A DNA stretch of 44,245 nt from NCBI GenBank assembly GCA_020051775.1, contig JAGVQJ010000067.1, positions 1 through 44,245 of the forward strand. The letters are read 5' to 3'. The position numbers and the translations under genes were made by a program. Under the pieces are notes generated by a model. The model was not told where the DNA came from. It did not search any database and was given only the letters and a program-made list of their open reading frames with translations. This stretch comes from Calditrichota bacterium (GTDB taxonomy: Bacteria; Electryoneota; B3-LCP). Shown one piece after another: positions 14,409 through 44,245 of the stretch (position 1 is its first letter; every line of letters begins with the position of its first letter).

Positions 14409-14699
14409 ATGAGAATTGAACAACAATTAAAATCCAGCCGCCTGGCCATCCTTCGTCTCGCCGCACAGCATGGCGCACGGAATGTGCGCATTTTCGGATC
14501 GGTGGCTCGGGGAGAGGCTGACGAACGCAGCGATGTTGACTTCCTGGTGGAAATGGAGCCGGGGCGAAGTCTATTCGATATGGGCGGTCTGCTGATGGAT
14601 CTGCGCGAGTTGCTGGGCCGAGATGTAGATGTTGTGACAGAGCGGGGGTTAAAACAACGTATCCGTGAGCGGGTATTGCGGGAGGCAATCCCACTATGA
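14409..14699 (+). CDS. mntA: MntA-type nucleotidyltransferase antitoxin (copy 2)
   Basis: A second 96-residue Mnt[21 protein letters not shown] contains Gly30-Ser31 and Asp42-x-Asp44; the third acid is in [11 protein letters not shown] (Asp74). It should AMPylate the HepT partner that overlaps it by 4 bp (ATGA at 14696). The start ATG 14409 lies 24 bp after the second hairpin. Its GC content is closer to the chromosomal genes than the CBASS operon beside it. Confidence 0.9.
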
Positions 14700-15031
14700 G
14701 AGATCCAAAGGAACGGTTGCAAGATATTCTAGATGCCATTGTCAGGATCGAACGTTATGCAGTACAAGGCAAAGCGGCATTCGAAGATGATGAACTGGTT
14801 CAAAATTGGATTGTCCGGCATCTCCAAATAATAGGAGAAGCATCACGAGTTTTACCTGACGATCTCAAAAAACAAGCTCCGGCTGTGCCGTGGTCAAAGA
14901 TTATTGGAATGCGGCACATCATTGTCCACGATTATTTCTATATTGATTTTGATGTCGTTTGGGAAGCGGTCGAGAAAGATTTGCCCTTTCTTCGCGATGA
15001 AATCAATAATATCCTTAAACGACTAGATTAA
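14696..15031 (+). CDS. hepT: HepT-type HEPN RNase toxin (DUF86, copy 2)
   Basis: The 111-residue HEPN toxin partner of MntA copy 2. The catalytic motif RX4HXY is intact in [14 protein letters not shown] (Arg73, His78, Tyr80), and the [12 protein letters not shown] block is conserved. It ends 44 bp before gyrA; the gap is filled by a heptamer repeat array. Similarity to HepT copy 1 is clear in motifs but modest elsewhere, suggesting independent acquisition or old divergence. Confidence 0.92.
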
Positions 15032-15040
15032 TCTCATCAA

Positions 15041-15075
15041 CTAACCACTAACCCCTAATCCCTAACGACTAATTT
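15041..15075. repeat. Heptamer tandem array (CTAAYNN)5 abutting gyrA start
   Basis: Five consecutive 7-bp units share the core CTAA (for example CTAACCA and CTAACCC), filling 15041-15075 exactly up to the gyrA ATG at 15076. Degenerate heptamer arrays of this style resemble the short tandemly repeated repetitive (STRR) sequences known from cyanobacteria. The array replaces any Shine-Dalgarno for gyrA. Confidence 0.75.
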
Positions 15076-17610
15076 ATGTCTTTCATTCCCGGTGAGAAGA
15101 TCACCCCTGTGAACATCGAGGAGGAGCTGCGGGATTCCTACCTCGACTACTCGATGTCGGTCATCGTATCCCGCGCGCTGCCGGACGTGCGCGACGGCTT
15201 AAAACCCGTGCACCGGCGCGTCCTTTTCGGCATGTCAGAGCTGGGCTTGCAGCCCGGTCGCGCCTACAAGAAGTCCGCCCGCATCGTCGGCGACGTCATG
15301 GGTAAGTATCATCCCCACGGCGACTCGGCCATTTACGATACCCTGGTGCGCATGGCTCAGGATTTCAGCCTGCGTTACCCCTTGGTGGATGGGCAGGGGA
15401 ACTTCGGGTCGGTGGACGGCGACGGCGCCGCGGCCATGCGATACACCGAAGCCCGCATGACGGCCTTGGCCGCCGAAATGTTAGAAGACATTGACAAAGA
15501 AACGGTGGACTTCGTCCCCAATTACGACGATTCCATGACCATGCCTTCGGTGTTGCCGGCCAAGATCCCGAACCTGCTCATCAACGGGACGGCGGGCATT
15601 GCCGTGGGTATGGCGACGAATATCCCTCCGCACAACCTGCGCGAGGTCATCAGCGGCCTGACGTACCTGCTGGAACGCTACGGCGAAAAATTCGACGACG
15701 GTGTCTGGATCAAGAAGCCAGAAGAGATCGAAGACGTAATCAAAGAGCTTTCCCGGCGGATCACCGCGCCCGACTTTCCCACCGGCGGCATCATTTACGG
15801 CAGCGAAGGCGTGCGCGAAGCCTACCGCACCGGGCGGGGGCGCATTGTCGTGCGCGCTCGGGCCAGCGTGGAACTGGGCAAACTGCGCGACCGCATTGTT
15901 GTGACCGAGATTCCCTACCAGGTCAACAAGACCCGTTTGATCGAAAAGATCGCGGAGCTGGTAAACGATAAAAAATTAGAGGGGATCGCCGACATCCGCG
16001 ACGAATCCGACCGCGACGGCATGAGACTGGTTCTGGAATTGAAGCGGGACGTCATCCCCGGCGTGGTGATGAACAACCTCTACGCTCACACGCAGTTGCA
16101 GACTACCTTCGGAGTGATTTCGCTGGCGCTGGTGGGCGGAGTGCCCCGCGTCTTGAATCTGGCGCAGCTCCTGATCGAATATCTGAAGCACCGCCACGAA
16201 GTGGTGGTACGGCGCGCCACCTTCGACCGCAAACAGGCCAAAGCGAGGCTGCACATCCTGGAAGGCCTGCGCATCGCGGTGGACAACATCGAGCGGGTGG
16301 TGGAGATCATTCGTACCAGCCGCACGGTGGAAAACGCGCGCACGGCCTTGATGGCCGAATTCAAGCTCTCGGAAGAGCAGGCCAAAGCGATCCTCGATAT
16401 GCGTTTGGCGCGACTGACCGGGTTGGAGCGCAGCAAGCTCTTAGATGAAATCAAAGCGCTAACAGAGCTCCTGGTCGAACTGGAAGCGTTGCTGGCTTCC
16501 AAGGCCAAGCGCGTCGCCTTGATCGTGGAAGAGCTTAAGGAGATCGGCGATAAATATGGCGACGAACGCCGCACCGAGGTCGTGGCCGACTACCGCGAGT
16601 TCACCTTAGAGGACATGATCGCCGAAGAGGAGATGGCCATCACAGTGTCCCATCAGGGATACATCAAACGCTTCCCGGTATCGGGTTTAAGACGGCAGAG
16701 ACGCGGCGGCAAGGGATCGACCGGCGCCAAGACCAAGGAAGAGGATTGGATTGACCATCTCTTCGTGGCGTCAACGCACAACTACCTGCTCTTCTTCAGC
16801 AACCGAGGCCGCTGCTACTGGTTGAAGGTGCACGAGGTGCCGCCGATGGCGCGCGGATCCAAGGGGCGTCCCATCGTCAATTTAATCAACATGGAACGAG
16901 ACGAGCAGGTGCGGGCTATCGTCACAGTCGCCGACTTCCCCGAAGACAAGTACATCATCATGGCTTCACGCGAAGGCATCGTGAAGAAGACGCCTTTATC
17001 CATGTACGGCAATCCGCGCAAGGCCGGCATTATCGCTATTAATATTCGCCCCGGGGATGAACTGATAGGCGCCAAGATTACCGATGGGACCAACGACGTC
17101 ATCTTGGGCACGCACAACGGTCAGGCGATTCGCTTCCCCGAGAACAAGGTGCGGCCCATGGGCCGTGCAGCCTCCGGCGTGCGGGGCGTCAAACTACGGG
17201 CAGGTGATTATGCTGTGGGGATGGTCGTGGTCAAGCGCGAAGGCACCCTGTTGGTCGTGTCGGAAAAGGGGTACGGCAAGCGCAGCAATATCCAGGATTA
17301 CCGGGTGACCAATCGCGGAGGCGTGGGTATCATCACCTTGCGGGTCACTGAGAAGGTCGGCCCCATGATTGCCATCATGGAAGTCGTGGATCAGGACGAC
17401 CTGATGATCGTCACCATAGGCGGCATGGTGATCCGCCAGCCGGTGGCGCAATTGCGCACCATCGGGCGCGCCACTCAGGGAGTGCGCCTGATTCGCATAG
17501 ACGAGGACGATAAAATCGCCGACATTGACAAGCTCATCAAATCCGAAGAGGACGACGAGGGTGGACCGGACGATCCTACCGGACCCGACGATCAGGAGGT
17601 ATTATTCTGA
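15076..17610 (+). CDS. gyrA: DNA gyrase subunit A
   Basis: GyrA cuts and rejoins DNA in the gyrase complex. The catalytic tyrosine is Tyr123 ([11 protein letters not shown]). The quinolone-determining region is intact with Ser84 and Asp88 ([15 protein letters not shown]), the sensitive-type residues by homology. The C-terminal beta-pinwheel has the GyrA box QRRGGKG, a feature separating gyrase from topoisomerase IV. Length is 844 residues, with an acidic C-terminal tail ([17 protein letters not shown]). No Shine-Dalgarno precedes the ATG; a heptamer array directly abuts it. A sensor kinase gene follows after 12 bp and could be co-transcribed. Confidence 0.97.
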
Positions 17611-34403: not shown

Positions 34404-34631
34404 ATGCCCATCTACGAATTTCAATGCACCCAATGCGCCGGCCGCTTCGACGAGCTGGTGCGCGCCTCCGTGAATCTGGAGGATATCATCTGCCCGCAGT
34501 GCGGGGCGAAATCGCCTAAAAAGCTGATGTCGGCATTCGGGTTCGCCTCCTCCGGGAAATCAGTGGCTTCGACCTCCTCCGGCCACAACTGCGGCAGTTG
34601 CCACTCCGGGCACTGCTCGACGTGTCACTGA
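34404..34631 (+). CDS. FmdB-family zinc-ribbon protein
   Basis: A 75-residue protein with an N-terminal FmdB zinc ribbon: MPIYEFQCTQCAGRFDELV and IICPQCGAKSPKKL give two CxxC pairs. The FmdB domain is found in regulatory or scaffold-like small proteins of uncertain function. The C-terminal tail is Ser/Cys/His-rich (SGHNCGSCHSGHCSTCH) and could bind an extra metal. It is the only + strand gene in the 31-44 kb stretch and is divergent from osmC. A heptamer array begins 2 bp after its stop. Confidence 0.88.
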   Translation: MPIYEFQCTQCAGRFDELVRASVNLEDIICPQCGAKSPKKLMSAFGFASSGKSVASTSSGHNCGSCHSGHCSTCH

Positions 34632-34632
34632 A

Positions 34633-34667
34633 TTAGGATTCAGGAGACAGGATACAGGAAACAGGAG
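34633..34667. repeat. Heptamer tandem array (NNAGGAN)5 after fmdB
   Basis: Five 7-bp units sharing the core AGGA (such as ACAGGAT and ACAGGAA) run from 34633 to 34667, starting 2 bp after the fmdB stop. Same unit length and copy number as the arrays at 15041 and 44178, but different core. Confidence 0.7.
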
Positions 34668-34680
34668 AAAACGACATGTC

Positions 34681-39626: not shown

Positions 39627-39654
39627 CTGTTCCCTGCCTATTGTTCCCTACCTA
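39627..39654. repeat. Heptamer array as a 14-bp dimer at the peptidase stop
   Basis: Four 7-bp units arranged as two 14-bp copies (such as CTGTTCC then CTGCCTA, repeated with two changes). The last unit includes the stop codon of the minus-strand peptidase gene. Confidence 0.6.
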
Positions 39655-40791
39655 AAAATACATCGCCCGCGAGTGCGTCAGCACTTCCACGCCGGTAGCG
39701 GTGACGAGCACGTCGTTTTCCAGGCGGGAGCCGCCCAGGTCGCCGACGACGCCCGGTTCCACGGTGAAGACCATGCCGACTTCCAGCGGCGTGGGTTTCC
39801 AGTATTTCAACACGGCCGGATCTTTTGGCTTGCGGCCCAGGAGCGGCGGGTCATGCACTTCCAGACCGATGCCGTGCCCCAAGCTGTAGGGCATGTTCAA
39901 CCCCGCCGATTCGATCACGGCGATGGCGGCTTCGGCTACTTCATGCGCCAGGGCGCCCGGCTTGATCAGAGTCAGCGCCTTCTCGTAGGCTTCCAGGGTT
40001 TTGTCCAGGATCTTCTGCTTCTCCGGCGGCAACTTGCCGAAAATCAGCGGGACGGTGACGTCGGTGGCATAGCCTTTCCACCACAAGCCCATGTCAATCA
40101 AGGCCAGACCGGGTAGATCCAGCTTCGCATCGGAAGAGGACGGTACCTGGTGGATCATGCCGGAACGGTCGCGATTGGCTGTCAGTGTCTCGAAGCTGGG
40201 GCCTTCGGCGCCGCGCTTCTTCATTTCGGTTTCCATGTAAATGGCCAGGTCGATTTCCCTTAAGCCCGAGTGGGATTTGACAAACGGTTCGATCAGGTTG
40301 ATGATCTCGTCGGTGACCTTGGCGCCTTCCTTCAAGATGGCGATTTCGGCGGGAGTCTTCACTGAGCGCAAGCGGCGCAGACCGTCTTCGGCTCCATCCG
40401 GACGGCAGACGACCTTGGCTCCGGAAAATTCTTCCTGCACTTGCACCACGGTGAAATGCTTTTCGGAAGGGAGGACTTCCAACGTGAAGGCCGCGCCTAG
40501 TTTATCGCGCAGAGCGTACACCAAAGCGGCGCGGTAAGAGCGGTCGAAATTGGCGACGTCCAGCAGCACATCCACTTGAGCCTCGTTTTTGGCCATCACC
40601 TGATCCCAGGGGATCAACGTCATGCTGCCGTCGGAAAAGAGCAGCAAGTGAGCGTCCGAAGGCTGGCCGGACAGGTAGCGCAGGCTCTTGTTGCGGTTGG
40701 GCTCGAAATCTGAGACCAACAGGGCGTCAACGGCGCGGGATTTCATTTCCGCGACCAGGGTGTTCAGTTTTTCGGGGGTAATAATTCTCAT
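39652..40791 (-). CDS. M24-family Xaa-Pro dipeptidase/aminopeptidase
   Basis: A 379-residue pita-bread-fold metallopeptidase. Start ATG 40791 with AAGGAA upstream; the longer frame would overlap the methyltransferase. The N-terminal half is a creatinase-type domain (about 1-140). The catalytic half has all five metal ligands in conserved blocks: LALIDMGLWWKGYATDVTVP (two Asp), SLGHGIGLEVHD (His), FTVEPGVV (Glu) and SRLENDVLVT (Glu). Enzymes of this family cleave Xaa-Pro bonds in dipeptides or at N termini. A solo methyltransferase gene lies 10 bp upstream on the same strand. Confidence 0.92.
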   Translation of the reverse strand: MRIITPEKLNTLVAEMKSRAVDALLVSDFEPNRNKSLRYLSGQPSDAHLLLFSDGSMTLIPWDQVMAKNEAQVDVLLDVANFDRSYRAALVYALRDKLGAAFTLEVLPSEKHFTVVQVQEEFSGAKVVCRPDGAEDGLRRLRSVKTPAEIAILKEGAKVTDEIINLIEPFVKSHSGLREIDLAIYMETEMKKRGAEGPSFETLTANRDRSGMIHQVPSSSDAKLDLPGLALIDMGLWWKGYATDVTVPLIFGKLPPEKQKILDKTLEAYEKALTLIKPGALAHEVAEAAIAVIESAGLNMPYSLGHGIGLEVHDPPLLGRKPKDPAVLKYWKPTPLEVGMVFTVEPGVVGDLGGSRLENDVLVTATGVEVLTHSRAMYF

Positions 40792-40801
40792 GTGCAATTC
40801 C

Positions 40802-41521
40802 TTAAGGTTTAATAAATGATTCTGGGGATATTCTCTCAAGGGCAATCCGGTGGTATTCCGGATCGATTTCGCTCAGAATGTAGCGCCGGCCTTCCAAAAT
40901 GCAGGCGACGGCGGTAGATCCCGATCCGCCGTAGGGATCCAGCACGATCTCATCGGGTTTGCTGGAAGCCTGGATGATCATCTGCAAGAGTTCCACCGGC
41001 TTGGTGGTGCCGTGGTTGAAGCGGTAGTTGGAAACCTTGGGGAACGGTTCGAGCAAGCCTTTCCCCGGGCGGCGTCCCAGGACATTAGACTGCCGCCGAC
41101 CCCGCAAAGGTTGCGGCTTCCCCTTCGATACAAAGATGATAAATTCATGCTGCGGCGCCCAGTTCCCGCGCAGGTCGCCACTGCCGTGATTGTTCTTGAC
41201 CCACACCAGGCAGTTGCGGTACTTGAAACCGGCCTCCACTAATGCTGTACGGATGCCGGGGAAGGTGAGATGGTCGCAGAAGCAGTAAAGATGGCAACCC
41301 GATTTCAGCACCCGATACGATTCTCGCGCAAACAGTTCCACGTCGAATTGGCCGTGCTGAATCCGCTTTAAGATCGGATGCGCCGTGGGACGGTTGCTGC
41401 GGTAATTCTTATAGGGCGGATCGGTCAGCACCAGATCCACGGAGTCGTCCGGCAGCCGGGCGAACAGGTCGCGGTTGTCGCCCAGGTAGATGAGGTTTGG
41501 CAGGTCGGGAGGTGGTTGCAT
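40802..41521 (-). CDS. Solo DNA methyltransferase (DPPY-type, N4/N6)
   Basis: A 239-residue AdoMet-dependent DNA methyltransferase. The catalytic motif IV is DPPY (LVLTDPPYKNYR, residues 34-37), and the AdoMet-binding motif I DPYGGSGSTAVAC is near the C terminus (about 195-201). Motif IV before motif I is the beta-class order typical of N6-adenine/N4-cytosine enzymes. No nuclease is adjacent on this side; a type II pair with its own methyltransferase lies 0.3 kb away. Possible roles are orphan regulatory methylation or defence against a cognate nuclease. The target sequence cannot be inferred. Confidence 0.9.
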   Translation of the reverse strand: MQPPPDLPNLIYLGDNRDLFARLPDDSVDLVLTDPPYKNYRSNRPTAHPILKRIQHGQFDVELFARESYRVLKSGCHLYCFCDHLTFPGIRTALVEAGFKYRNCLVWVKNNHGSGDLRGNWAPQHEFIIFVSKGKPQPLRGRRQSNVLGRRPGKGLLEPFPKVSNYRFNHGTTKPVELLQMIIQASSKPDEIVLDPYGGSGSTAVACILEGRRYILSEIDPEYHRIALERISPESFIKP

Positions 41522-44073: not shown

Positions 44074-44177
44074 GTTTCATGTCCAAGTAATTTTTAAATA
44101 CTTAGTTGTGTTTTATTTACGTAACGTAACTCCTTTGGTTTCAGGTCAAGCCCGGAATGACACCATTCCTTTAAAAG

Positions 44178-44219
44178 CTAAATGCAGAATGGAGAATGAA
44201 GAATGACGAATGAAGAAGT
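44178..44219. repeat. Heptamer tandem array (NNGAATG)n
   Basis: Four clear 7-bp units with core GAATG (for example GAGAATG and AAGAATG), flanked by two degenerate units, between the methyltransferase start and the window end. Same period as the arrays at 15041, 34633 and 39627. Confidence 0.65.
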
Positions 44220-44223
44220 CTGG

Positions 44224-44243
44224 ATTCCCGCTTGCGCGGGAAT
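44224..44243. repeat. 20-bp palindrome ATTCCCGC/GCGGGAAT
   Basis: Perfect 8-bp arms (44224-44231 and 44236-44243) with a 4-nt TTGC loop, directly after the heptamer array. It is a shorter relative of the 34681 and 41630 elements and resembles Neisseria dRS3-type repeats in form (ATTCCC..GGGAAT). Confidence 0.65.
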
Positions 44244-44245
44244 GA

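Follow-up and report, generated by a model that had tools for sequence, protein, structure and literature searches.

The degenerate heptamer arrays found in the 44,245-nt stretch of DNA analysed here (hereafter, the window) probably belong to a genome-wide class of period-7 repeats that also forms the inverted arms of elements carrying an IVP gene (23S_rRNA_IVP, PF05635); arrays standing alone would represent single arms, and paired arms would loop out the sequence between them. To our knowledge, no cause has been given for the heptamer repeats described in bacteria over several decades; the fold of IVP proteins is solved, but they have no assigned function; and no mechanism of movement is known for rRNA intervening sequences (IVS). 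Inverted arms with matching heptamers connect these three subjects, and they caution against taking IVP genes in cas and other operons for functional partners, since such genes may be hitchhikers.

The window is contig 41 of a 196-contig draft genome (LCP-89-like; G000 below), and its relevant features are the following:

14696-15031, plus strand: HepT-like (HEPN) gene directly upstream of the first array (Pfam PF01934, E 6e-26).
About 15040-15072, no strand: solo period-7 array, core CTAANNN, 5 cores; matches IVP arms of its own genome.
15076-17610, plus strand: gyrA (DNA gyrase subunit A); its product, which served to place the genome, shares 78% identity with that of candidate division LCP-89 bacterium B3_LCP.
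34404-34631, plus strand: short zinc-ribbon-like ORF, read from sequence, whose stop precedes the second array.
About 34633-34668, no strand: solo period-7 array, core AGGANNN, 5 units.
39627-39654, no strand: 14-mer dimer (TGTTCCCTRCCTAT x2), not a heptamer array.
About 44172-44219, no strand: solo period-7 array, core AATGNNG, 5-6 units.

The first-pass annotation described four exact 7-bp arrays in the window, placed at a gene start, after a stop, at a stop and next to a palindrome. Inspection of the sequence bore out all these placements. The first array lies between the stop of the HepT-like gene (15031) and the start of gyrA, ending 3 bp short of the ATG at 15076, and is C-rich on the gyrA sense strand (“right-arm” type); the second begins 1 bp past the TGA ending at 34631 and, being G-rich on the strand that is sense for the preceding gene, is of the “left-arm” type. 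At 39627-39654, the repeat borders on the stop codon of the minus-strand gene 39652-40845 and overlaps it, and the last array is located 4 bp ahead of a palindrome (44222-44244) at the contig end. The palindrome itself, GGATTCCCGCTTGCGCGGGAATGA, is REP-like. As for the periodicity, the arrays placed by the annotation at 15041, 34633 and 44178 are real: a score-based scan of the window returned exactly three period-7 arrays (15040, 34633 and 44172), versus a mean of 0.05 and a maximum of 1 in 150 order-2 Markov surrogates. The fourth had to be discarded as a heptamer array, its identity being 0.86 at 14 bp and only 0.29 at 7 bp. Among periods 4-22, none equals the level of period 7 in the window except 14 (that is, 2x7) and one period-6 site. 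The window arrays have no IVP gene (PF05635 ORF) between arms, and no set of four G-tracts of 3 or more; a search of the surrounding 2.5 kb for inverted partners gave nothing convincing, apart from one weak match for the array at 44172.

The same kind of repeat is abundant elsewhere in the genome. In the scanned part of G000 (1.08 of 4.07 Mb), 71 period-7 arrays were detected versus 0 in order-2 shuffles, and other periods gave 0-8 arrays, except for the multiples 14 (31) and 21 (11). The heptamer arrays were to be given up if shuffled sequence produced a similar number of them, or if no further ones existed in the genome; with 71 against 0 and the other periods low, neither is the case. A period of exactly 7 beyond chance, as in STRR-type repeats, is thus a property of three window arrays and of the genome, and not of the repeat at 39627. 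The dispersed arrays occur in many copies and with numerous cores, partly common within the genome, in keeping with the earlier description of an equal period combined with different cores. Their density is 66 per Mb in G000, 28 in other genera of the same family (G001-G005), 26 in genomes with no detected IVP and 4 in diverse genomes. The third value derives from 8 arrays in 0.31 Mb, five of which, TTTCGGATTTCGG-type, lie within one 20-kb stretch (L280, genome G023), and a dependence of array abundance on IVP presence across genomes was not established.

The first clue to the affinity of the arrays came from two pairs on contig 6 of G000, whose members are mutually inverted and 370-380 bp apart. 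The DNA between them encodes a four-helix-bundle protein of the 23S_rRNA_IVP family (PF05635), of which a Xanthomonas member, XCC0516, has a solved structure (2gsc). Nearly all the intact IVP loci of G000 are flanked by inverted arrays, each locus having its own core (AAGTTGC, CAGGACA, AGGATTC, AGGGATT, AATTATA, GTTATGA and the 8-mer CAAGTNNN). When the upstream flank was compared with the reverse complement of the downstream one in 33 IVP loci from G000, its phylum and other phyla, the median score was 20.0, versus 8.0 for both swapped arms and random windows (p 5e-19). Inverted arms were also found in 12 of 12 IVPs located on named plasmids (median 22.75 vs 9.0) of Geminocystis, Calothrix, Nostoc (three), Pseudanabaena, Stanieria, Picosynechococcus, Leptolyngbya, Azospirillum, Riemerella and Anabaena, which represent Cyanobacteriota, Alphaproteobacteria and Bacteroidota. 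At these 33+12 loci the PF05635 ORF lies between the arms. Among control genes of up to 900 bp in G000, only 3 of 337 have flanks so strongly inverted, and none of the three (0/3) has heptamer arrays. The cores are specific to each element, yet they match between its two arms.

Each element is a cassette of about 450 bp with a loop of mostly 350-480 bp. In most of the 33, the 5' arm starts between -10 and +13 nt relative to the stop that ends the preceding gene; it is G-skewed in 27 of 30. Rather than residing inside 23S rRNA, 28 of the 33 elements are located between co-directional protein genes; the terminal inverted repeats typical of IVS/IVP elements are present at the IVP loci and absent from the solo arrays of the window. 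The period of the arms is mostly 7, with 8 in L226, L248, L252, L253 and L254 and 9 in L242; these 8- or 9-bp units are usually equal in both arms, which makes unit length a property of the element that is not always 7. RNA folding was predicted to join the arms of two examples in a stem that encloses the ORF (L019, z -4.4; L266, z -2.1). Mismatches between arms exhibit no G-U wobble preference (23:27), so that selection for pairing at the RNA level, sought through such a bias, found no support. Some loci depart from the common layout. At L134 (G000, contig C42, 10976-11576) the IVP gene is split by a GIY-YIG endonuclease-like ORF, with ACCTCTG-type arrays around it; genome G045 stands alone in harboring 19 partial IVP matches that form divergent pairs with a spacing of about 200 bp (e.g., C7:104028-104554 and C2:122174-122711); and IVP-less hairpins of the GTTATGA/TCATAAC type, with short, AT-rich, AAAACAAAT-like loops, lie behind stop codons at L159 (13675-13735), L162 (9124-9205) and L170 (2268-2334).

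The solo arrays, such as those of the window, share several features with these arms. They lie flush with stop codons in 21 cases out of 29, where 7.1 are expected (P<5e-5), and those placed after stops are mostly G-skewed (18:6). Moreover, 39% of their cores match IVP arms of their own genome at a score of 14 or more, versus 9% for the arms of other genomes and 8% for column-permuted arms; the array upstream of gyrA reaches a score of 21 against the IVP arms of its own genome. Stop-codon placement, G-skew and common cores lead us to read the solo arrays, those of the window among them, as arms of the same element class devoid of an IVP. We infer this with moderate confidence, since solo arrays far outnumber IVPs in the sample and some genomes without a detected IVP also hold a few arrays. 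The idea that every solo array might have an inverted partner was abandoned: within 0.5-2.5 kb one was found for only 10 of the 42-43 arrays outside coding sequence, and four of these 10 are IVP arms.

The gap upstream of gyrA carries arrays in three genera of one family (window 15040-15072; L175, 1431-1461; L176, about 1475-1495). The core is CTAANNC in G000 and GTAGCCA/GCAGCC in G002; G004 has roughly three units of GCAACNN, and no array occurs in this gap in G001 and G003. A comparable situation is found at one IVP site, whose arms are of the CTAAYCC type in G000 and of the TGAATCC type in G001. The occurrence of different cores at the same site suggests a shared process and not plain copying, as the first-pass annotation had argued in proposing a shared generating mechanism instead of copy dispersal; the second half of that proposal needs to be softened, since solo arrays reuse arm cores of their own genome and, therefore, some dispersal or common source exists. 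The same comparison bears on the possibility that a protein binds the heptamers in RNA or DNA and that selection has placed these sites where genes begin and end. This would account for arrays adjoining stops and starts, and it has been proposed for the TAACTGA repeats of Beggiatoaceae (PMC4679880). However, cores that differ wholly between sites, even orthologous ones, do not suit one binding protein; furthermore, the arrays in type 9 secretion tails (see below) are coding, and the neighbouring genes have no noted common function. A regulatory origin thus appears improbable to us, and the reading of the arrays as element arms is the one we retain.

The comparison of occupied and empty sites suggests that the elements are mobile. 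The gap orthologous to the second contig 6 IVP is empty in G001, G003 and G005, and in cyanobacterial plasmids, including those of Nostoc, homologous gaps are either occupied or empty at four sites. At the TraM site of two plasmids the element is 99.4% identical, with 84% in the upstream flank and 94% in the downstream one; at a second plasmid site the values are 99.05% for the element and 92% for the flanks. These values show that IVP elements are transferred as a unit, although a short tract exchanged by homology between equivalent sites may also account for them. One plasmid (L293) harbors only the arms at its TraM site, without the IVP, while its relatives have either the IVP or an empty site, and the tree of the flanks is mixed, fitting neither loss nor a precursor state clearly. 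As for the mode of movement, several known ones were considered and rejected. Membership in the DNA transposon or MITE class is contradicted by arm cores that differ from element to element, so that fixed terminal inverted repeats do not exist, and by the lack of a target-site duplication of constant length in 42 elements. A duplication equal to the 7-bp unit is exact in a single case, Nostoc N6, where the direct repeat ATTCTAA stands on both sides of the element, outside the arms; in the 42 elements no general excess emerged (5.12 vs 5.13 permuted). The Nostoc N6 element (L300, plasmid pNPM1) is interrupted by about 180 bp. A reverse transcriptase acting as mobiliser in a DGR-like manner, suggested by a resemblance to Avd, was likewise set aside, RVT_1 not being found in G000-G005, each of which has 5-10 IVPs. 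Hence neither target duplication nor reverse transcription explains the period of 7.

A further explanation to be weighed arises from the arrays located within genes. According to our own simple gene caller, 29 of the 71 arrays of G000 are coding and the other 42 fall in intergenic gaps or at their margins. Of the coding ones, 27 of 29 (L121, L125, L126, L127, L135, L153, L159, L166, L170 and others) map to the type 9 secretion C-terminal sorting domain or to the stretch immediately ahead of it (Por_Secre_tail, assigned through a PNPFNP-type motif and, for three examples, by Pfam). They occupy either the first strand of the domain (PNPFNP..AISYELRAAS) or the preceding linker (LITHNSSLITSLSPNPFNP), and the usual strand or linker is replaced there by SYELRAAS, SYQLSAFS or LITHNSSLITS. 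The original ISYQL coding already contains two near-copies of 7 bp and, therefore, ISYQL-type coding may have been the seed of these arrays. One might then suppose that all the arrays are slippage hot spots, at which chance pairs of near-identical 7-mers expand, and that IVPs pick up arrays already in place. The in-frame growth of arrays inside genes, the near-copies preceding it in ISYQLP-type coding, the whole-unit differences in right-arm copy number between strains (6 vs 7 in L263/L295) and the presence of arrays in some genomes without detected IVP all speak for such a process. However, slippage alone leaves unexplained the near-exclusive 7-bp step, the matching of inverted cores 350-480 bp apart in almost every IVP element, and both polarity and stop-codon placement; the arrays-first order is at odds with the empty sites of Nostoc and Picosynechococcus (L294, L296-L299 and L302), which look array-free before the arrival of the element. 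In our opinion, slippage as the sole origin of the arrays is unlikely, although less so than a regulatory one.

An IVP element consists of a G-rich array at the stop of the upstream gene, the IVP ORF, and a reverse-complement array before the next gene; under the preferred reading, in which the arrays are IVP arms, it would insert just behind a stop codon. In the transcript, the arms can pair as a stem that loops out the IVP ORF and brings the flanking stop and start codons together, so that the operon might be little disturbed; the IVSs inside 23S rRNA, whose stem is cut by RNase III, are arranged likewise (PMC4990558). The arms may act by such looping or as an RNase III stem, and each solo array might be a single arm that an IVP element has left behind or has yet to join. 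That arms pair although their sequence differs at every site points either to recognition of structure or to continual copying from arm to arm, neither of which fits the usual transposon. The matching might be upheld at the DNA level by copying one arm from the other, through template switching at the quasi-palindrome, alongside slippage in 7-bp steps; given the absence of a wobble bias, arm copying at the DNA level appears to suit better than selection on the RNA. A broader proposal can be advanced tentatively, and we would place it short of probable: IVP would be the protein of widespread small mobile elements that insert behind stops in operons, with inverted, element-specific arms of degenerate 7-9-bp repeats kept matched by arm-to-arm copying; STRR, TAACTGA and GGGNATC repeats would be their solo arms, and the rRNA IVSs would be their rRNA-inserted members.

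As far as known systems are concerned, the 23S rRNA IVSs of Leptospira and Coxiella burnetii encode the same PF05635 family and, at about 430 nt, have terminal inverted repeats forming a stem. In C. burnetii, tandem GACAGAT heptamers with strain-variable copy number lie upstream of the S23 ORF, and a 28-bp stem undergoes RNase III cutting, excision from the transcript by this enzyme having been published only for rRNA IVSs (PMC4990558). In contrast, the elements described here are located between protein genes of operons, just past the stop, at many sites per genome, with arms having their own core at each site.

The likeness to cyanobacterial STRR arrays, already noticed by the first-pass annotation, gained substance, in that the IVP arms of Nostoc, Anabaena, Calothrix and others are such arrays. 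Like ours, the STRR and GGGNATC repeats have a period of 7, a short copy number and tens to hundreds of intergenic arrays (PMC4692102); the published work, however, deals with fixed consensus cores and a possible quadruplex, and a link to IVP genes is not reported there. The GGGNATC repeats of Xanthomonas and Nostoc have the G strand downstream of stops and the C strand upstream of starts (PMC4692102), which is the polarity of the two IVP arms. A quadruplex, as proposed for those repeats, agrees with this rule in our arrays (G-rich after stops, C-rich before starts) and with the presence of GGG in some cores (GGGAACA, GGGATTA). However, most cores lack GG runs (GTTATGA, AAGTTGC, CAGTTAA, AATTATA), so it cannot be their common feature, and we consider this explanation very improbable, the least so of all being that of element arms. 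The TAACTGA direct repeats of Beggiatoaceae (MacGregor 2015, PMC4679880) are also heptamers near starts and stops: they are found just upstream of starts, with some reversed after stops, and are patchily distributed across Beggiatoaceae, Cyanobacteria and Bacteroidetes. They differ in having one dominant core, read as the binding site of a translational regulator, instead of many.

Lastly, earlier work lists IVP genes inside cas operons among the possible cas accessories (PMC3936711, PMC10910872). Of our 12 plasmid IVPs, three are likewise located between cas6 and cas4 or between cas10 and cmr3 (L264, L267 and L272), but they are flanked by arms, and the cas10/cmr3 gap of PCC 7002 is empty; both findings suggest that IVPs in cas operons are hitchhiking elements rather than cas components. 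A general rule of inverted heptamer arms with element-specific cores on IVP genes was not found in the open literature searched. What is known already are the heptamer arrays (PMC4692102, PMC4679880) and the IVP genes in 23S rRNA and cas loci (PMC4990558, PMC3936711); what appears to be new are the inverted, core-matched heptamer arms as a general feature of IVP elements, for which Coxiella provides a one-case precedent.
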